Virus record (IMG/VR): IMGVR_UViG_3300017962_000143
Location: 1 to 22,207 of that record
DNA length: 22,207 nt
Source of the DNA: a virus
Strand: one strand, 5' to 3'
Below, in pieces: positions 1,793 through 11,524 of this stretch. The position numbers and the translations under genes are program-made. Positions within the stretch are counted from its first letter, which is position 1. The number at the start of each line of letters is the position of its first letter. The notes beneath the pieces were generated by a model. That model saw only the letters and a list, made by a program, of their open reading frames with translations, was not told the DNA's origin and did not search any database.

Positions 1793-2326
1793 TTAGGAAG
1801 CCTTCTTCTTCTTAGCTTTGGGTTCTATGAGGTCGTTGGCAACCTCGATGTTGATACCCATTGCTGCATCCATGTCCAGCAGTTCTTGCGGTATATCTAC
1901 CTCTTGCTGTGGTACGTTCTGCGTTCCGTATGAGTAGCCAATGGGTGCACCATACGGTGTGTACCATTCGCCATGTGCTGCGAACCATGCGTGTTGCAAG
2001 TCGCTGTACATCTCGTCAAGCTGTTCGTGCTTGTACTGTGCAGCTTGCGATGCTCCATATGAGCCGCGAATCCGCTGCATGCTGATCTCTGTACCATCGT
2101 ACATCTTGCGGTCTGCTTCGTAGCGGCTCTTCTTGTTGTTGGCATTGATCTCTGTATCGACACCATTCTTGCCACCATATCTGAGAAAGTACAGGCCATC
2201 GAGCATCTTCTCCATCAGGACTCTGCGCACAAAGGTCATCTCGTCGTGTGGCAAGAAGTCTTTGGTGTCGTAGTCAAAGCGGTCAAATTCAAAGGTGAGT
2301 TCATTGATCATAGTAGCGATAGTCAT
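1793..2326 (-). CDS. hypothetical 177-aa protein with lysine-rich tail
   Basis: First leftward gene after the non-coding divide. I start it at the ATG at 2326, which has AGGAGA nine bases upstream. A longer frame from 2374 would include this ribosome site in the coding region and is unlikely. The protein begins MTIATMINELTFEFDRFDYD, is rich in Tyr, Gln and Met, and has a low-complexity middle (residues ~95-140: SYGASQAAQYKHEQLDEMYSD, then tyrosine- and glycine-rich). It ends in an acidic helix and a KAKKKKAS tail, a possible nucleic-acid contact. No domain is recognised. It is a one-gene transcription unit closed by the terminator at 1754-1784; the codon pattern and ribosome site leave little doubt that it is real. 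Confidence 0.75.
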   Translation of the reverse strand: MTIATMINELTFEFDRFDYDTKDFLPHDEMTFVRRVLMEKMLDGLYFLRYGGKNGVDTEINANNKKSRYEADRKMYDGTEISMQRIRGSYGASQAAQYKHEQLDEMYSDLQHAWFAAHGEWYTPYGAPIGYSYGTQNVPQQEVDIPQELLDMDAAMGINIEVANDLIEPKAKKKKAS

Positions 2327-2438
2327 TGTTTGTTCTCCTATATTGTCTATCGAGTACACATTCTTCATGTACAAGTATAGGATCGGATACCAAATCTGTT
2401 CACTGCAAGGATCGAAGACCAGCTTTGCTGGCGGTGTG

Positions 2439-2469
2439 TTCGCAGCGTCAGCTTGCCTGATGCAGCGAA
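2439..2469. repeat. 31-nt strong hairpin
   Basis: TTCGC (2439-2443) pairs with GCGAA (2465-2469). After an A-A mismatch, GCGTCAG (2445-2451) pairs with CTGATGC (2457-2463), with one G-T pair if read as + strand RNA. The loop is CTTGC. Confidence 0.7.
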
Positions 2470-2580
2470 ACGCCGTCCTTGCGGTGGGCTGATTTGGGAG
2501 CCCAACTGGAAGTTATCATTAGAAGATGTGTGTGTGATGATAGATACATCGCTGATAAGGTGTCCTGCAGACATACAAGA

Positions 2581-2650
2581 GCCTCCTACGATCATAAGCA
2601 TCAAGCCAGCTTTGCCCAAGCAAAGTGGCAGATGTGAGGTGATCGGAGGC
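2581..2650. repeat. 70-nt long imperfect stem-loop (26 pairs)
   Basis: The stem has five blocks. GCCTCC (2581-2586) pairs with GGAGGC (2645-2650); after a 3-base bulge GATCA (2590-2594) pairs with TGATC (2640-2644); after a 3x4 internal loop GCATC (2598-2602) pairs with GATGT (2631-2635, one G-T pair); after a 2x1 loop GCCA (2605-2608) pairs with TGGC (2626-2629); after a bulged G CTTTGC (2610-2615) pairs with GCAAAG (2620-2625). The loop is CCAA. It lacks tRNA T-loop and anticodon features. This is far beyond what random sequence gives. Confidence 0.8.
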
Positions 2651-2728
2651 AGGGTCTGTGACTGCGAGGACGCCGCAGAAGCGATTGGCGCATGACACAA
2701 TAAACGATTCTTTAAAGCGTCATGCAAC

Positions 2729-2763
2729 GCAATTGGAAATGGCTCGATGCCATTGAGAATTGC
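2729..2763. repeat. 35-nt two-block hairpin with symmetric GGA/GAG internal loop
   Basis: GCAATT (2729-2734) pairs with AATTGC (2758-2763) and AATGGC (2738-2743) pairs with GCCATT (2749-2754), all perfect, with loop TCGAT. The internal loop sets GGA against GAG, which in + strand RNA allows tandem sheared G-A pairs, a common recognition motif. Confidence 0.75.
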
Positions 2764-2786
2764 TCTCCGCTCTCACAAATCTAACT

Positions 2787-2832
2787 TGACGCTACGTCAC
2801 CTCTTGACAAGCAATCTACAGATCGTGTTAGT
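2787..2832 (+). promoter_or_regulatory. candidate rightward promoter with upstream TGACG-N3-CGTCA operator
   Basis: TGACG-cta-CGTCA (2787-2799) repeats the arms and spacer of the site at 1531-1543. Five bases downstream is a perfect -35 hexamer TTGACA (2804-2809). The matching -10 region (2826-2832, TGTTAG or GTTAGT) is weak. If used, it would transcribe rightward into terS, with the repeat placed just upstream of the -35, an activator-like position. The inverted repeat is certain; the promoter is tentative. Confidence 0.4.
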
Positions 2833-2834
2833 GT

Positions 2835-2857
2835 GGGGGGGAAGAGGGAAGGGGGGG
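2835..2857 (+). other. G-rich tract with G-quadruplex pattern
   Basis: Two G7 runs (2835-2841, 2851-2857) flank a GGG (2846-2848), all on the + strand. This meets the four-runs-of-three rule for an intramolecular G-quadruplex. It lies 136 bases before terS; a second G-rich run follows the terS stop (3364-3376). Confidence 0.6.
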
Positions 2858-2992
2858 CAAGGCCAGAGGATATAGATACAATTCTTAATCCTTTGAGCAA
2901 AGAAAAACATAGCACTGTCCTTCACCACTAAGCAACTGGACTGAAAGTCTGTATCCTTATAGCTATACACGGTAGATATAGAAAGTTAACAT

Positions 2993-3364
2993 ATGCTTCC
3001 CGCTAAGAAATTGACTGATAAACAGATGGCTCTGGTGGATACACTCGTAGCAGAAGGGTGTAGTATTGCTAAGGCTGCTGAACTCGCTGGTTATGCTAAG
3101 GGCGAGAGTGGAAGAGTCAGCGCACACAGAGCACTAAAGGCTGCACATGTGCAACAGTATATGCAGCAGAGGATGAATGAGACATTTGGATTGACCGCTA
3201 CGAGTGCGCTGGCGACAGTGCGTAGGCTGTCTCAGAACGCTAAATCTGAGTATGTTCAGCTTGAAGCGAGCAAGGATTTATTGGATAGGGCTGGCTATAA
3301 ACCTATAGATAGAGCACAGGTGCAAGTTGCAGGAGATATTCGTGTTAGCATTGACCTAGGCTAG
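2993..3364 (+). CDS. terS: terminase small subunit
   Basis: This 123-aa protein has the usual small-terminase layout. It opens with KKLTDKQMALVDTLVAEG, followed by a helix-turn-helix (SIAKAAELAGYAKGES, residues ~25-40) for binding the packaging site. A helical oligomerisation segment contains the family-typical EASKDLLDRAGYKP block (residues ~92-105), and the protein ends in a beta-rich tail (VQVAGDIRVSIDLG). The small subunit binds concatemer DNA as a ring and hands it to the large subunit encoded 2.45 kb downstream. It is the first gene of the rightward block. The ATG at 2993 lacks a strong ribosome site (GAAAG only). Length is normal for phages of this type. Confidence 0.85.
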   Translation: MLPAKKLTDKQMALVDTLVAEGCSIAKAAELAGYAKGESGRVSAHRALKAAHVQQYMQQRMNETFGLTATSALATVRRLSQNAKSEYVQLEASKDLLDRAGYKPIDRAQVQVAGDIRVSIDLG

Positions 3365-3478
3365 GGGGGTAGGGGGAAAAACTGCGTACTGTGTTACTGT
3401 AATAGTCCCCAACTAGCATTTTTAGCCAAAAAGGTTTGTGCATTGTCAGAATTATTTTTTTTATAGTATAGGTTCGTT
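3364..3478 (+). other. terS-orf33 intergenic leader with second G-run and promoter-like motif
   Basis: The terS stop TAG opens G6-TA-G5 (3364-3376). Further on, an A+T-rich hairpin TTTTT-agcc-AAAAA lies at 3420-3433. Then TTTGTGCATTG (3435-3445) matches 10 of 11 bases of the motif found at 7339 and 22141, followed by a T-rich stretch and TATAGT (3462-3467). The next gene starts at 3479. This is probably a promoter for the small-gene cluster, though its -10 spacing differs from the two better copies. Confidence 0.45.
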
Positions 3479-3580
3479 ATGGCTAGATTTGCGAAACAAG
3501 CTGAGAAGGCACCACCTCGGGATGACATGTCTCGGGTTAAGTTATTATTGAAGAGTGTTGGTTATGCGAAAAGAGCATAA
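3479..3580 (+). CDS. 33-aa basic peptide
   Basis: A short frame starting MARFAKQAEKAPPRDDMSRV and ending in VGYAKRA. It is the first open frame after the promoter-like motif at 3435 and overlaps the next gene by 17 bases. The ribosome site is weak (AGG seven bases upstream of the ATG). Composition is basic (nine Lys/Arg of 33). It is not recognised. It may be a leader peptide whose translation feeds the DUF6321 gene, because that gene has no good ribosome site of its own. Confidence 0.5.
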   Translation: MARFAKQAEKAPPRDDMSRVKLLLKSVGYAKRA

Positions 3581-4689: not shown

Positions 4690-4926
4690 ATGAAACCTTC
4701 TCAGAAATCTTTGCTGGATTGGGGAAAACAGAAGTGGCGAACCAAGTCTGGCAAGAAGTCTAGTGAGACTGGTGAGCGGTACTTACCTGCTAAGGCTATC
4801 GCTGCTCTTAGTGATTCTGAATATGCAGCTACAACCAGAGCTAAACGAGCGGGTAAGGCAAAGGGTCAGCAGTTTGTGGCTCAACCGAAAACAATTGCTC
4901 GGAAAGTAAGAAAGTATAGAACATGA
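4690..4926 (+). CDS. conserved small basic phage protein (KWRTKSGK family, DUF5872-like)
   Basis: This 78-aa protein begins MKPSQKSLLDWGKQKWRTKS. The order KPSQ-SL--W--QKWRTKSGK-S, GERYLP-KAI-ALS--EYAATT, KGQQFVAQPK-IA-K---YR is a conserved family in phages and large DNA viruses; I believe it is DUF5872, but the number is from memory. Function is unknown. The protein is strongly basic with no acidic domain. Its stop overlaps the next start (ATGA). It belongs to the run of tiny genes between terS and terL. Confidence 0.75.
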   Translation: MKPSQKSLLDWGKQKWRTKSGKKSSETGERYLPAKAIAALSDSEYAATTRAKRAGKAKGQQFVAQPKTIARKVRKYRT

Positions 4927-5087
4927 AGAAGCCGAAACTAGGAACTGGTAAACGCTTTTCTTTGCTGGTGCGAGAGTTAGAAAAGAAAGATGTTAAAGAC
5001 CCGAAGGCGCTTGCGGCTGCGATTGGCAGAAAGAAATATGGCAAGAAGCGGTTTCAAGAGATGGCAGCTAAGGGGCGTAAAGGATAA
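4923..5087 (+). CDS. conserved 54-aa lysine-rich protein (IGRKKYGKKRF family)
   Basis: Begins MKKPKLGTGKRFSLLVRELE and has the block DPKALAAAIGRKKYGKKRF (residues ~26-44), ending AAKGRKG. About 19 of 54 residues are Lys or Arg. The G-GKRF-----L---GVKDP-ALAA-IGRKK-GKK-F pattern is common in small proteins of phages and environmental viruses and has no known function. The ATG at 4923 overlaps the previous stop (ATGA), and its own TAA overlaps the next start (TAATG). Likely a nucleic-acid-binding or virion-packaged peptide. Confidence 0.72.
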   Translation: MKKPKLGTGKRFSLLVRELEKKDVKDPKALAAAIGRKKYGKKRFQEMAAKGRKG

Positions 5088-5392
5088 TGGAAAAGTTACC
5101 TAAGTCAGTTAGTGGTAAGGTTCCTTCTTGGCTAACTCGCGCTTTAAATCCTTCTACAGCTATGACAAATCAGAGTGAAACTGTTAGAACAACTTCTATG
5201 GAGTATAATGGTAAGGAGATTTTGTTTCCTACTATAAGAATGATAAATGGAAAGTTGGAAAGATTTACGCCAAGAGCTGCTTTTGAGTTAGCCCTTAGAA
5301 ACAGGGATTATATTGTATATGATACGCCAGATCAGGCAACGGCTGGAAGCAAGATGATAAGTGGGTTAATTGCTAAGGCAAGGGAAAAATAA
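5087..5392 (+). CDS. hypothetical 101-aa protein with phage virion-associated NGKEILFPTI domain
   Basis: Begins MEKLPKSVSGKVPSWLTRAL. The middle and C-terminus (residues ~40-95) follow a pattern recurrent in phage virion-linked proteins: NGKEILFPTIRMINGKL, then a helix (TPRAAFELALRNRDYI), then VYDTPDQATAGSKMISGLI. In other phages this small module is found alone or at the end of tail and lysis proteins; its function is not known to me. AAAGGA lies just before the start, which overlaps the previous stop. One of the better folded-looking products of the small-gene cluster. Confidence 0.62.
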   Translation: MEKLPKSVSGKVPSWLTRALNPSTAMTNQSETVRTTSMEYNGKEILFPTIRMINGKLERFTPRAAFELALRNRDYIVYDTPDQATAGSKMISGLIAKAREK

Positions 5393-5622: not shown

Positions 5623-5819
5623 GTTTTGTAAACACGCTCAAACAAGAAGAGCTTAATCTCTTGCGCAATATAGTTAAGAAGGAACACTTTAAATTCTTCG
5701 ATCAGAAGCATGGCAAGATGTTCGTAACTAATTATATGCTAGATCAGATGATTGATAGTATTGGCCCTGAGATTGCAGAGCGTATTATCAAGCAGGGTAC
5801 TGACGCAGGGTTAAGATGA
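5619..5819 (+). CDS. hypothetical 66-aa protein, GTG start
   Basis: Starts with GTG at 5619 within a GTGA overlap and ends by overlapping the terL ATG (ATGA). The product begins MSFVNTLKQEELNLLRNIVK and is helical throughout, with MLDQMIDSIGPEIAERIIKQGTDAGLR at the end. No domain is recognised. Its fixed place directly before terL and translational coupling to it suggest a packaging accessory role, which is inference only. Confidence 0.6.
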   Translation: MSFVNTLKQEELNLLRNIVKKEHFKFFDQKHGKMFVTNYMLDQMIDSIGPEIAERIIKQGTDAGLR

Positions 5820-7336
5820 TTGACTTCAAGTACAAGCCAGACGGTGACGTACTAAAATTCTTTATGAAGGATGATACCTTCTTTCGCGGGATTCGTGGTC
5901 CTGTTGGCTCTGGGAAATCTGTGGCTTGTTGTGTGGAGGTGTTCCGCCGCGCCCTTATTCAGAAGAAGGGACCCGATGGAATCCGCAAAAGCCGATGGGC
6001 TATAATCAGAAATACCAACCCGCAGCTTCGAACGACGACCATTAAGACTTGGCTTGATTGGTTTCCTGAGAATGATTGGGGGAAGTTTCATTGGTCGGTG
6101 CCATACACACACCACATTAAAAAGGGGGATATTGATCTTGAGGTTCTTTTCTTGGCTCTTGATAGGCCCGAAGATGTTAAGAAACTGCTTTCACTTGAAC
6201 TCACAGGTATATGGATCAACGAAGCGCGAGAGATTCCTAAGTCGATTATTGATGCCTGTACGATGCGTGTTGGGCGTTATCCTTCTATGCGTGATGGCGG
6301 TCCTTCTTGGACTGGCGTTATTGCCGATACCAACGCGCCCGAAGAGGATCACTGGTGGCCTATCATGGCTGGTGAGGTTCCAATCCCAGATCATATACCG
6401 CGTGAGCAAGCTAAGATGCTGGTCAAGCCAGACAATTGGAGTTTTTACACCCAACCTTCTGGAATGCTCGAAGTAAAAAACAAAGAAGGCGAGATAGAAG
6501 ATTATGAGCCTAATAAGAAGGCTGAGAATACAAAGAATATGCTTAAGACATATTATCCTAATCTTATTCGAGGTAAGACCAAATCATGGATAGATGTTTA
6601 TGTTATGAACCGATTGGGTCATATTCAAGATGGAAAGCCTGTATATCCGATGTTTGCTTCAGAAGTTCACATTGCAGAGGAAGAAATACCAATAGCAGCC
6701 AATACCCCAGTGTATGTTGGCGTAGACTTTGGATTGACTCCTGCCGCCGTTCTTGGTCAGAAGGTCAGGGGCCGATGGTTTTTGCAGTCAGAAATAGTGG
6801 CGGTAGACATGGGCATCGTGCGTTTTGCAGAAGTTCTTAGGAATGAGCTTGCAATACGTTTTGCGGCAGCGTCCGAGGTTATAATCTATGGTGATCCTGC
6901 TGGTGATTTTAGAGCGCAGACTGATGAGTCCACCCCTTTTCACATTCTGCGCGGTGCTGGCTTGAGGGCGTTCCCCGCGCCTTCCAACTCTGTTGACCTT
7001 CGACTTGAGGCTGTCTCTTCCCAGCTGACCAAGATGGTTGAAGGGAAGCCAGCACTTTTAATTGATAGGCGTTGTTCTCAGCTTATTAAAGGCTTTGAGG
7101 GTGGGTATTCCTATAAGAGAATGGAAGTATCTGGCGAGCGGTATGCTGATAAACCAGACAAGAATATGTTCAGCCACATTCACGATGCGGCTCAGTATTT
7201 ATTCTTGGGTGCTGGTGAGGGCAGGGCTTTGATGAATACTCAGAAACCCTTAAAACCTGTTGTTGCCCAGAGAAACTTTGATGTATTTACTAAGTCGCCC
7301 AAGAAAAAACGGCAGAGTGTTTGGGCAAGAATGTAA
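5816..7336 (+). CDS. terL: terminase large subunit
   Basis: This 506-aa protein is the ATP-driven DNA packaging motor and nuclease. The N-terminal ATPase has a Walker A GPVGSGKS (residues 28-35) and a Walker B-like strand ending GIWINEARE (131-139) with the likely catalytic Glu136. The C-terminal RNase H-like nuclease shows three expected acidic sites: Asp304 (VGVDFG), Asp360 (IIYGDPAG) and Asp457 (HIHDAAQY). Length is normal. The start overlaps the previous stop. It works with TerS on concatemer DNA and docks on the portal encoded downstream. No promoter is seen directly upstream; the next transcription signal follows its stop. Identification is firm from motif order. Confidence 0.95.
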   Translation: MIDFKYKPDGDVLKFFMKDDTFFRGIRGPVGSGKSVACCVEVFRRALIQKKGPDGIRKSRWAIIRNTNPQLRTTTIKTWLDWFPENDWGKFHWSVPYTHHIKKGDIDLEVLFLALDRPEDVKKLLSLELTGIWINEAREIPKSIIDACTMRVGRYPSMRDGGPSWTGVIADTNAPEEDHWWPIMAGEVPIPDHIPREQAKMLVKPDNWSFYTQPSGMLEVKNKEGEIEDYEPNKKAENTKNMLKTYYPNLIRGKTKSWIDVYVMNRLGHIQDGKPVYPMFASEVHIAEEEIPIAANTPVYVGVDFGLTPAAVLGQKVRGRWFLQSEIVAVDMGIVRFAEVLRNELAIRFAAASEVIIYGDPAGDFRAQTDESTPFHILRGAGLRAFPAPSNSVDLRLEAVSSQLTKMVEGKPALLIDRRCSQLIKGFEGGYSYKRMEVSGERYADKPDKNMFSHIHDAAQYLFLGAGEGRALMNTQKPLKPVVAQRNFDVFTKSPKKKRQSVWARM

Positions 7337-7394: not shown

Positions 7395-7622
7395 ATGTGC
7401 TTTGGTCCTAGTAAAAGAGAAAAACAGGCAGCAGCCGAACAACAAGTAGAAGCTGATGTTGCAAAGCGTGAAGAAGTTGAAAAGCGCGCAGAGCAAAAGC
7501 GGGAAGATATTTCACAAGCATTAGAAGCAAGAACAGAAAGACGCGGTATGCGCGGTGGTGCTGGTCGTCGTTCTTTGTTTCGTTCTGGTGGTGCTGGATT
7601 TCTTGGTAGGTTCAATTACTAA
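7395..7622 (+). CDS. T7 gp7.3-like pre-portal virion/tail assembly protein
   Basis: This 75-aa protein begins MCFGPSKREKQAAAEQQ. Residues ~5-48 form a charged helix (likely coiled coil). The C-terminus is Arg/Gly-rich, with GMRGGAGRRSLFRSGGAG near residues 51-68. That Arg/Gly-Ser-Leu tail and its place directly before the portal gene parallel T7 gp7.3, a small virion protein needed for tail assembly and adsorption. AAGGAG six bases upstream makes the start certain. It is the first gene after the copy A promoter cassette, and its stop overlaps the portal start. Homology to gp7.3 is from position and tail motif, not full-length similarity. Confidence 0.65.
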   Translation: MCFGPSKREKQAAAEQQVEADVAKREEVEKRAEQKREDISQALEARTERRGMRGGAGRRSLFRSGGAGFLGRFNY

Positions 7623-9151
7623 TGGACAAGGTAGCAAAGCGTTATATTGAAAAGTACCAAAAGGCGAAAGCCTTTCGGGAACAGTGGGTTCCTCTGTTTG
7701 AAGAGTGCTATGAGTACGCTTTGCCGCAGCGTGAATCTTTTTACTATGAAGAACACGGACAGCGCAGGGACGATAAAATCTTTGACGAGACTGCCGTTGT
7801 GGGCGTTCAAGAGTTTGCAAGTCGCCTACAATCAGGCATTGTTCCAAACTATGCGCGTTGGGCAGACTTAATATCAGGCAGTGAAATACCCCCAGAGCAA
7901 CGAGAAGCAATTGATAATGAGTTGGATGAAGTTACCGAGTATGTATTTGAGGTACTTCAGAACTCAAACTTTAGCCAAGAAGTCCATGAGTCCTTCATGG
8001 ATTTGGCTGTCGGGACTGGTATTTTGTGCGTCGAGGAAGGCGATTCACTAAACCCAGTAAACTTTTCTGCAATACCCCTACCCCATGTCGTACTTGATAC
8101 TGGCCCCGACGATAGAATAGATCACGTATTCCGTGAGCGTAAGAAGGTTAAGTTTGACCATTTGCCATTAATGTTTCCGAATGGAACCTTTGATAACAAG
8201 GTTACTTCGCAGATGGGAGCAAACAGAGAAACAACTGTTCTTGAACTGGTTTGCCGTGACTACTCAACAAAGAATGAAGAATCCTATCTTCACTATGCAA
8301 TTTGCATGAGTACAGAAACTGTATTGCATTATAAGAAACTAAGTGGTGTTGGTTCTAATCCATTTGTTTGCTTTAGATGGTCTAAGTGCGCTGGTGAGGT
8401 TTATGGACGTGGCCCTCTTATTAATGCCTTGTCTTCTATTAAAACAACCAACCTTACAATTGAGTTAATCCTTGAAAATGCCCAAATGTCCATATCAGGT
8501 ATATACCAAATGGAGGATGATGGTGTCATTAATCCAGATACCATTAACTTAGTGCCAGGGACTATAATACCAAAGGCTATGGGGTCTGCTGGATTGCAGC
8601 CTATTCAAGCGGCTGGTCGCTTTGATGTGGCGCAACTTGTATTGAGTGACATGCGATTGAATATCAAACGCGCACTTTACAACGATATGCTGGGGAATCC
8701 TGATCGAACCCCTGCAACTGCAACTGAGATTGCAGAAAGAATGGCTGATCTTTCCAGAAGAATGGGTGCTGCATTTGGTAGATTGCAAGCTGAGTTGGTT
8801 CAGCCTGTCTTGCAACGTGTTATTTATATTCTCAAGAAACAAGGGCGTATTGAGGTTCCGACTATAAATGGTCGTGAGGTTAAGGTTCGCTCTGTATCTC
8901 CGCTTGCTCAAGCGCAAGCCAATCAGGATATTTCTAGCGTTGCTAGATTTATTGAGTTGGTTGGCACTGGCTTTGGGCCAGAGATGTTGCAGCTACTTAT
9001 TGATGGTGAACAGACAGCTATTTATCTTGCTAAGAAATTTGGTGTGCCAGAGAGCTTGATTCGTGACGAAGAACAGCGTAGACAGATAGCTGCGTTAGCG
9101 CAGCAACTGGCACAACAACAGCAAGGTATGCCCATTGAGCAACAAGGTTAA
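7622..9151 (+). CDS. portal (head-tail connector) protein, T7 gp8-like
   Basis: This 509-aa protein forms the dodecameric ring at one capsid vertex through which DNA enters and leaves. The T7-type pattern is clear: YIEKYQKAKAFREQWVPLFEECYEYALPQ near the N-terminus, DETAVVGVQEFASRLQSG (residues ~53-70), the LAVGTGILCVEEG wing segment (~128-140), NPDRTPATATEIAERMADLSRRMG (~357-380) in the crown/stem region, and a Gln-rich C-terminus (AQQLAQQQQG). Length is slightly below T7 gp8 (536). Its ATG overlaps the gp7.3-like stop (TAATG). It is followed by Bbp19-like, scaffold and capsid genes, as expected. Confidence 0.93.
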   Translation: MDKVAKRYIEKYQKAKAFREQWVPLFEECYEYALPQRESFYYEEHGQRRDDKIFDETAVVGVQEFASRLQSGIVPNYARWADLISGSEIPPEQREAIDNELDEVTEYVFEVLQNSNFSQEVHESFMDLAVGTGILCVEEGDSLNPVNFSAIPLPHVVLDTGPDDRIDHVFRERKKVKFDHLPLMFPNGTFDNKVTSQMGANRETTVLELVCRDYSTKNEESYLHYAICMSTETVLHYKKLSGVGSNPFVCFRWSKCAGEVYGRGPLINALSSIKTTNLTIELILENAQMSISGIYQMEDDGVINPDTINLVPGTIIPKAMGSAGLQPIQAAGRFDVAQLVLSDMRLNIKRALYNDMLGNPDRTPATATEIAERMADLSRRMGAAFGRLQAELVQPVLQRVIYILKKQGRIEVPTINGREVKVRSVSPLAQAQANQDISSVARFIELVGTGFGPEMLQLLIDGEQTAIYLAKKFGVPESLIRDEEQRRQIAALAQQLAQQQQGMPIEQQG

Positions 9152-10714: not shown

Positions 10715-11524
10715 ATGGCTAATACAATTGACCAAGCCTTTATCAAGCAGTTTGAGACAGAAGTTCACATGGCGTATCAGCGTATGGGTTCCAAATTCCG
10801 TAACACTGTTCGCTCTTCGAACGTAACTGGCTCAGTTGCTCGTTTCCAAGTAATTGGTAAAGGTACTGCAAGCACTAAATCTCGCAATGGTGATGTAACT
10901 GCAATGGAGCTGGTACACACTAATGTCGAAGCAACGATGACAGATCACTACGCTGCGGAGTACATCGACAAGCTGGATGAATTGAAAATCAACATCAATG
11001 AGCGTCAAGCTGTAGCGCAATCTGCTGCTGCTGCTCTTGGTCGTAAGACTGATGAATTGATTACAACAGCTATGGATGCTGGTGCTAATTCAACTCAAAT
11101 CCATGACACTTCATCTGCTCTTGAAAAAGCAGACCTTTTGTCATTGTTTGAAACATTCGGCAATGAAGACATTCCAGAAGACGGACAACGCTATCTTGCT
11201 ATGTCTCCTGCTGGTTTTGCTGACCTGTATGGAATCAATGAGTTTGCATCTTCTGACTTTGTTGGACCGCAGAATCTGCCCTACGCTGGCGGTATGACAA
11301 TGAAAGAGTTCTTGGGCTTCAAGATTTTCTCAACGTCTGCTGTTGCTGGTGGTAAGAACTTTGCATACCACACAACTGCTGTTGGACTTGGTATTAACTC
11401 TGATGTTCAGACTGAGGTAAACTATGTACCTCAGAAGGTTTCACACCTTGCAACCTCTATGATGTCAATGGGTGCTGTTGTTATTGATGACGATGGTGTC
11501 TTTGAAGTCTTAGACAACAACTAA
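10715..11524 (+). CDS. major capsid protein (Phage_capsid_2-like, HK97 fold)
   Basis: This 269-aa protein builds the icosahedral shell. It begins MANTIDQAFIKQFETEVHMA. The segments GSVARFQVIGKGTAS (residues ~39-53), EATMTDHYAAEYIDKLDELK with NINERQAVAQSAAAALGRK, and LAMSPAGFADLYG follow the pattern of the shorter HK97-fold capsids of podoviruses (Phage_capsid_2) rather than T7 gp10 itself (about 345 aa). Place between scaffold and tail tube genes confirms the role. AAGGA precedes the ATG. Codons end in C or T in a way unlike its neighbours, as expected for the most expressed gene. A strong hairpin follows the stop. Confidence 0.9.
   Translation: MANTIDQAFIKQFETEVHMAYQRMGSKFRNTVRSSNVTGSVARFQVIGKGTASTKSRNGDVTAMELVHTNVEATMTDHYAAEYIDKLDELKININERQAVAQSAAAALGRKTDELITTAMDAGANSTQIHDTSSALEKADLLSLFETFGNEDIPEDGQRYLAMSPAGFADLYGINEFASSDFVGPQNLPYAGGMTMKEFLGFKIFSTSAVAGGKNFAYHTTAVGLGINSDVQTEVNYVPQKVSHLATSMMSMGAVVIDDDGVFEVLDNN

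Follow-up and report, generated by a model that had tools for sequence, protein, structure and literature searches.

A new family of large structured RNAs between a small divergent gene and terS in pelagiphage-related phages

The locus and its gene neighbours

The virus record IMGVR_UViG_3300017962_000143 comprises 22,207 bases and was analysed over its full length, hereafter the window. By gene content it groups with marine podovirus-like phages. The genes to the right include terS, encoding the terminase small subunit (2993-3364, + strand; PHROG 2538, E 1e-13), and those for the terminase large subunit (5816-7336), the head-tail adaptor or portal (7622-9151) and the major head protein (10715-11524). 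Searched against the phages collection, the portal has its best match, at 63% amino-acid identity, in Pelagibacter phage EXVC031P 'Hodr', and the terS products of the two phages share 53%. The locus tags within the EXVC031P Hodr entry, OQ414635.1, read EXVC032PBaldr, apparently a record mix-up. A leftward gene block lies at the left and a rightward block at the right, and the RNA region described here occupies a gap of ~670 bases between a leftward gene for a 177-aa protein (1793-2326, - strand) and terS. Farther left, 441-1268 encodes a leftward 275-aa protein with a DUF932 domain (PF06067, E 1.4e-17).

The 177-aa gene adjoins the RNA wherever a contig reaches it and belongs to no known family. 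The window's protein had no match in PHROG at E 0.001, and none of four members scanned from a family set of 30 sequences exceeded a curated Pfam cut-off. An AlphaFold model of the protein is fair and helical (pLDDT 77.8), with a low-confidence Lys-rich tail. Foldseek returned nothing from the PDB for this model at E 0.001 (best 0.66) and three matches among viral models at the same threshold, all unnamed or uncharacterized.

Upstream of terS, at 2804-2857, TTGACA (one mismatch allowed) precedes two G runs, the first about 25 bases further on and the second after a short spacer. This block is present in all 68 terS upstream regions examined, many of them near-identical, and is likely a late promoter or a G-rich signal. 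The palindromic TGACGNNACGTCA occurs at 1531-1543 and 2787-2799, matched on both strands (4 matches, 0.11 expected), and is possibly an operator; similar letters recur in the P2b hairpins described below. A search for a phage RNA polymerase was uninformative, since no positive control gave a signal.

A strongly folded region with nested arms

Read as + strand RNA, positions 2375-2770 fold at -177.8 kcal/mol; 100 dinucleotide shuffles give -125.9 +/- 5.7, and none of them is as low (z -9.1); the - strand gives z -7.4. An earlier note made from the letters alone had described 2419-2763 as dense in hairpins and had proposed such a comparison with shuffled controls, and the energy excess on both strands, together with recovery of the repeats that it listed, bears out that description. 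Its 26-pair stem corresponds to the inverted repeat 2385-2411/2476-2502, with 27-nt arms that are 78% complementary, and the pairs 2690-2704/2711-2725 and 2729-2743/2749-2763 have 15-nt arms with 80% (12/15) complementarity. The pair 2548-2566/2667-2685 was also detected. At low thresholds, 16 inverted-repeat pairs are found in 2300-2900, some surely by chance. The interval first proposed is structured but too narrow, the fold extending over about 2344-2690 and perhaps to 2763. Nor are the repeats laid end to end, as had been supposed; the arms are nested, a stem formed by 2344-2366 and 2522-2546 enclosing the long stem that starts at 2385-2390.

Homologs at one gene border

The starting sets were the best 80 of 122 terS relatives and 17 loci reached via the 177-aa protein, and among these the region is a mosaic between loci. 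A scan for the 15-base motif CCCAACTGGAAGTTA yielded 89 contigs, in 56 of which TGTGTG occurs 9-24 bases later; the contigs with enough flank, together with the window, gave 32 distinct sequences, which constitute family A. The motif is constant across members because they were chosen by it. It is also exact in 17/17 of the loci found via the 177-aa protein, a route independent of the motif, all of them near relatives (75-100% identity).

On every contig that is long enough, the left neighbour of the element is a homolog of the divergent 177-aa gene and the right neighbour is terS. The 78 loci that carry it are redundant, several contigs appearing under two or three identifiers. A 177-aa homolog (28-100% identity) lies at the left in 76 of them, and in the other two the contig begins 123 and 207 bases before the motif; terS lies at the right in 71, and the remaining 7 end within 36-575 bases after the motif.

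The letters of the members differ much while the folds are alike, except in three members (L086, L103 and L151) whose P2 arm has been replaced. In these three a different, longer sequence substitutes for upper P2, an exchange of RNA modules. Two of them were tested and have weak folding energy (z -1.6 for L151, -3.3 for L086), which counts against the explanation preferred below.

A model, R1, was built from the alignment of P2. Searched outside its training set in 48 sources, it found L087, L025, L096, L095 and L135 at E 2e-13 to 2e-9; the group of L025 has seven members, of which two (L089 and L094) were left out of the search and 5/5 searched were found. It also matched the arm-replaced L086 and L103 (E 3e-7 and 6e-7) and did not find L151 in these sources. 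Weaker matches, all of them upstream of terS, were obtained for L024/L026/L027 (E 6e-5) and for L057, L052, L006 and L022 (E 0.003-0.03). In L024 (3971-4770), L006 and L022, some 800 bases before terS fold strongly and include an arm like P2, with another hairpin arm of similar form further left.

Dropping the first three letters of the motif from the search pattern added four contigs, none matching R1, so the relaxed motif did not extend the family, a result that also supports the constancy of the motif independently of how members were chosen. The 33 loci with the motif and without TGTGTG were treated as chance occurrences; over these and the four relaxed-motif contigs (37 loci), R1 gave two weak, alike matches at E 0.072. 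In the phages collection, BLASTN of two family-A stretches and one stretch of the family B described below found no match, as did tblastn of two 177-aa homologs, and by these searches no family-A isolate was found. A pattern scan of genome_contigs returned 0.

Compensatory change supports the fold

Evidence from the aligned sequences shows that a three-part fold, consisting of a closing stem P1, a branched arm P2 followed by CCCAACUGGAAGUUA, and an arm P3, is kept through compensatory changes. The earlier note had held that a lack of covarying pairs among relatives would refute a structured RNA; such pairs are present in each of three alignments (A1, A3 and A4), with covariation scores that exceed 500/500 shuffles in every case.

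Alignment A1 covers P2 in 22 of the 32 sequences; the ten excluded are the three whose arm is replaced and seven whose letters could not be aligned well. In it, 90.2% of cells are paired, compared with 80.2% when the 3' letters are reshuffled (reached by 0/500 shuffles), and the score is 0.290 against 0.132 (0/500). Cells with double changes number 93, against 34.4 in shuffles, and both sides have changed in 18 pairs, against a shuffled mean of 14.3 (reached by 1/500). Sliding the partners by 1-3 columns leaves 25.6-39.7% paired. The count of further pair types in A1 shows no excess, 483/500 shuffles reaching it. Across the whole element, A4 (10 sequences) is 97.3% paired, with a score of 0.132 against 0.087 (0/500) and 14 double-change pairs against 8.0; A3 (7 sequences, including the window) is 95.6% paired, with a score of 0.182 against 0.103 (0/500) and 19 double-change pairs against 16.4, a number reached by 29/500 shuffles. 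Because the structures were derived from the same alignments, the slid controls flatter the fold, and the reshuffle controls ignore the relatedness of the sequences.

The long-range closing stem P1 pairs 2344-2366 with 2522-2546 on the + strand (duplex energy -23.8 kcal/mol), its 3' strand containing GUGUGUGUGAUGAUAGA. The duplex is found in 29/29 members examined, at -19.5 to -33.0, the three members with a swapped arm being excluded, and pairs changed on both sides number 5/23 in A4 and 0/16 in A3. When strands were swapped between members, cognate combinations averaged -24.5 and non-cognate ones -21.5, many of the latter being equally good. This result is equivocal, and P1 therefore rests on its covariation in A4 and its presence in 29/29 members.

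Repeats, energy and covariation support the P2 arm (2385-2502, + strand), in which a basal stem, 2390-2411/2476-2497, surrounds two hairpins. P2a, CCAGC-UUU-GCUGG (2419-2431, +), has double changes in 2/5 pairs and 100% of its cells paired; the P2b hairpin arm (2432-2476, +), with the apical GCGUCAG-CUUGC-CUGAUGC at 2445-2463, has them in 9/16 pairs. Between P2 and the 3' strand of P1 lies the conserved motif (2501-2515, +), which could form a small bulged hairpin with an AACU loop. The P3 arm (2548-2685, +), with the apical CUUUGC-CCAA-GCAAAG at 2610-2625, is supported by energy, by folds of sub-alignments and by A3 and A4. Hairpins P4 (2690-2725, +; GCAUGACAC...GCGUCAUGC) and P5 (2729-2763, +) are less secure as members of the RNA. 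The former is kept in the near relatives of A3, with 92.2% of cells paired and no double changes; the latter is variable (85.7% paired in A3), and its membership is uncertain.

Coding potential and known RNA classes

The absence of a credible coding frame, asserted in the earlier note, required closer inspection. One frame on each strand of the window is free of stops for 310 nt (103 and 102 codons), so the assertion is not trivial; a stop-free run of at least 80 codons is, however, found in only 5/32 family members, and the openness is thus not conserved. A conserved protein in this stretch would have refuted the proposal, and no conserved open frame exists among the 32 members.

At the gathering score, Rfam gave no match for the window or 15 related loci, and none for 2200-3500 when searched to E=5. 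The suggestion that the region might be a relative of GOLLD or ROOL consequently found no support, while the other option raised with it, a new class, is favoured by the folding energy, the covariation and the lack of an Rfam match. ARAGORN detected no tRNA or tmRNA in the 22-kb window, which is a fragment. Among the literature matches listed, judged by title and the start of the abstract, none described an RNA structure at this locus or in any pelagiphage, a weak result given that few subscription papers were covered.

The strand under selection

That the + strand is the one under selection is well supported, as far as comparison of sequences can tell. When each strand was folded separately with RNAalifold, the + strand had the lower energy in 7/7 sub-alignments, with 188 G.U cells against 72 on the - strand, although the P3 T sub-alignment hardly separates the two (27 against 24 G.U cells). 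For 16 aligned P2 sequences, the structure derived from the + strand contains 34 G.U and 0 A.C cells, and a separate + fold of 16 P2 sequences contains 39 G.U and 4 A.C cells, with 10 more A.C in mismatch columns. A first wobble count (1543 G.U against 1036 A.C) mixed in poorly aligned pairs and was repeated with members 80-98.5% identical; of the distinct single changes that fell in paired positions, 209 gave G.U and 121 gave A.C, and at 85-98.5% identity the counts are 128 and 84. Double changes run the other way, with 532 to Watson-Crick pairs, 24 to G.U and 34 to A.C. A mismatch count without G.U stands at 104 against 28, in part a matter of base composition (GG 32 against CC 5). Per-sequence z-scores (25 shuffles each) are more negative on the + strand in 9/13 family-A and 11/11 family-B members, but on the - strand in 4/13 family-A members and in EXVC031P. 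R1, which detects one full-length copy per record in 6/6 member records, the window's included, scores weakly on the opposite strand over the same place in five of the six.

Since both wobble counts and energies favour the + strand, the RNA most likely runs in the direction of terS. This weighs against an alternative put forward in the earlier note, that the structure belongs to the 5' leader of the leftward 177-aa gene; formed on the - strand, such a leader would mask the gene's ribosome-binding site. In favour of this leader, the closing stem ends at that site, the gene family stands beside the RNA wherever the contig reaches, and in L007, L033 and L044 an RNA of a second type extends over the start of a different leftward gene. 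Beyond the strand preference in all seven sub-alignments, a promoter-like site at 2402-2374 on the - strand (a like site occurs in 3/32 members) would start the mRNA inside the element, and the homologous gene of L019 is accompanied by another type of RNA. We consider such a leader improbable.

The same wobble signal bears on a DNA element devoid of RNA function, be it a replication origin, packaging site or cruciform. The region adjoins terS, both strands fold, and palindromes and G-runs lie nearby, yet palindromes in double-stranded DNA offer no reason for G.U to outnumber A.C, and the long-range P1 is equally unaccounted for. A replication origin, also raised in the earlier note, is not excluded but leaves the one-strand signal unexplained, and the DNA reading as a whole seems to us very improbable.

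A location on the same strand as terS would also suit a cis-acting leader of the rightward terS or late transcript, such as a processive antitermination or stability element, and no intrinsic terminator-like site was seen on the + strand between the RNA and terS. Against this stands the promoter-like TTGACA/G-run block that separates the two in all of the regions examined, given which the late transcript may start only after the RNA; a late leader is thus unlikely in our estimation. Promoter-like sites upstream of P1 on the + strand occur in 11/32 members scanned, scattered and with none in the window, and no intrinsic terminator-like site was found on the + strand across 2150-3050, so that the ends of the transcript are unknown.

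Different rods in sister phages

Some terS relatives that lack the motif carry a different structured rod at the same gene border. In family B (L007, L008, L013, L018, L019, L029, L033, L039, L044, L049 and L063), the start region of a leftward gene pairs with sequence on the right of that gene to close the rod, and an alignment of 10/11 members has 509 Watson-Crick, 39 G.U, 27 A.C and 55 other cells. In L007 (2440-2720), L033, L044, L018 and L019, a rod-like RNA lies over the start of the leftward gene, with a conserved apical loop near GCAAAGCGAAGCGUACC. The rod of cultured EXVC031P is ~165 nt long (L182, 4776-4940), and the enclosing stretch 4770-5110 has z -5.5. Within L182 4770-4970, the right arm of the rod resembles the ribosome-binding site and first codons of the leftward gene, copied in inverted orientation. 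A coarse scan of 20 regions, at 12 shuffles per region, showed no strongly folding stretch in other terS relatives (for example L048 and L060).

These rods share with family A the border and a long rod closed at the start region of the leftward gene. They differ in giving no match to R1 at E up to 1 and in having no CCCAACTGGAAGTTA at the border among the loci examined. Homologs of the 177-aa gene also exist without family-A RNA; in motif-less loci, one lies upstream of terS in 6/36 (L019, L009, L021, L022, L006 and L024; E < 1e-4), and in EXVC031P the homolog search reached E 0.004. In L019 the homolog accompanies a family-B RNA, from which it follows that gene and RNA type are exchangeable.

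A proposed regulatory role

Our preferred explanation, to which we assign a probability of roughly 0.6, is that the element represents a new family of large structured non-coding RNA of about 350-420 nt, encoded on the + strand of pelagiphage-related, podovirus-like marine phages, with a small divergent gene on one side and terS on the other. We suggest much more tentatively, at less than even odds, that it acts as a free-standing RNA regulator where the leftward gene block meets the rightward block for packaging and structure; this function is inferred, in the absence of transcript data. P1 starts just past the Shine-Dalgarno (ribosome-binding) site of the 177-aa gene, and the RNA may for this reason regulate that gene. 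By position, the 5' strand of P1 would be antisense to the leader of the divergent gene and would be masked within P1. Were P1 to open, this strand could pair with the leader and damp the gene, and the opening might be governed by a protein bound at the 15-base motif, a putative site. Regulation of the divergent neighbour is ranked first because three RNA types without detected similarity close at the neighbour's translation start region, which leaves the 5' strand antisense to the leader and the 3' strand resembling it. Several points count against it: any divergent transcript that overlaps the leader would be complementary to it as a matter of course, the ends of the transcript are unknown, and, as noted above, 177-aa homologs occur without the family-A RNA. 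Nor do we claim that P1 alternates with a local hairpin on the 5' side, since the hairpin that such a switch needs is barely above shuffles (9.9 against 8.5 +/- 2.0).

A rival that we regard as possible, if doubtful, is a free, ornate RNA with a trans-acting or structural role (scaffold, decoy, oligomer, or capsid- or host-directed) in the manner of GOLLD and ROOL and without action on the neighbour. The presence of one full-length copy per member record is in keeping with it, and the replacement of modules within P2 would fit a scaffold. Its size, long arms and phage location also resemble those of the ornate RNAs reported in PMC12286853. The lack of an Rfam match, the absence of a tRNA gene from the window and the restriction to one gene border speak against it.

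A broader and more speculative extension of neighbour regulation is that the clade repeatedly builds rods of unrelated sequence (family A, family B and that of EXVC031P) at one border, amounting to a new regulatory 'fold-back leader mimic'. The closing helix would start at the ribosome-binding site of the divergent small gene, whichever one is present (homology of these genes is not established), with the 3' strand of the RNA imitating the leader of that gene and the 5' strand antisense to it. Architecture and position would then be inherited while sequence is replaced wholesale.

Comparison with known systems

Few large folded RNAs are known from phages, and no function is known for either GOLLD or ROOL. 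The present family is compact and occurs in 56 contigs of one collection, at one border. Compactness, the single border, a highly conserved 15-base site and a constant protein neighbour make its function testable. SAR11 is a very abundant bacterial group of the ocean, and since a rod occupies the same border in cultured EXVC031P, whose recorded host is HTCC1062, RNA sequencing of infected SAR11 cells is feasible.

Among smaller systems, cis-antisense RNAs cover the translation start of a divergent gene, for example in plasmid copy-number control and type I toxin systems. The 5' strand of the present RNA would likewise overlap the leader of the divergent gene, but the RNA is far larger than these examples, and pairing with the target has not been shown. 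The phi29-type prohead RNA (pRNA) is also a structured phage RNA, and here too a packaging gene, terS, is the neighbour; the difference is that the present RNA has no Rfam match. ROOL is a homo-oligomeric RNA cage. The RNA described here matches neither the Rfam covariance model of GOLLD nor that of ROOL. According to PMC12286853, GOLLD is often found near tRNA islands, whereas the window, a fragment, contains no tRNA gene, and many GOLLD members exceed 800 nt, compared with the 350-420 nt estimated here. GOLLD, ROOL and the present RNA are all phage-encoded, large, many-armed, supported by covariation and of unknown function. Fitting the model of neither, and with its role as yet unproved, the element constitutes a real and new family of large structured phage RNA of the kind that GOLLD and ROOL exemplify.
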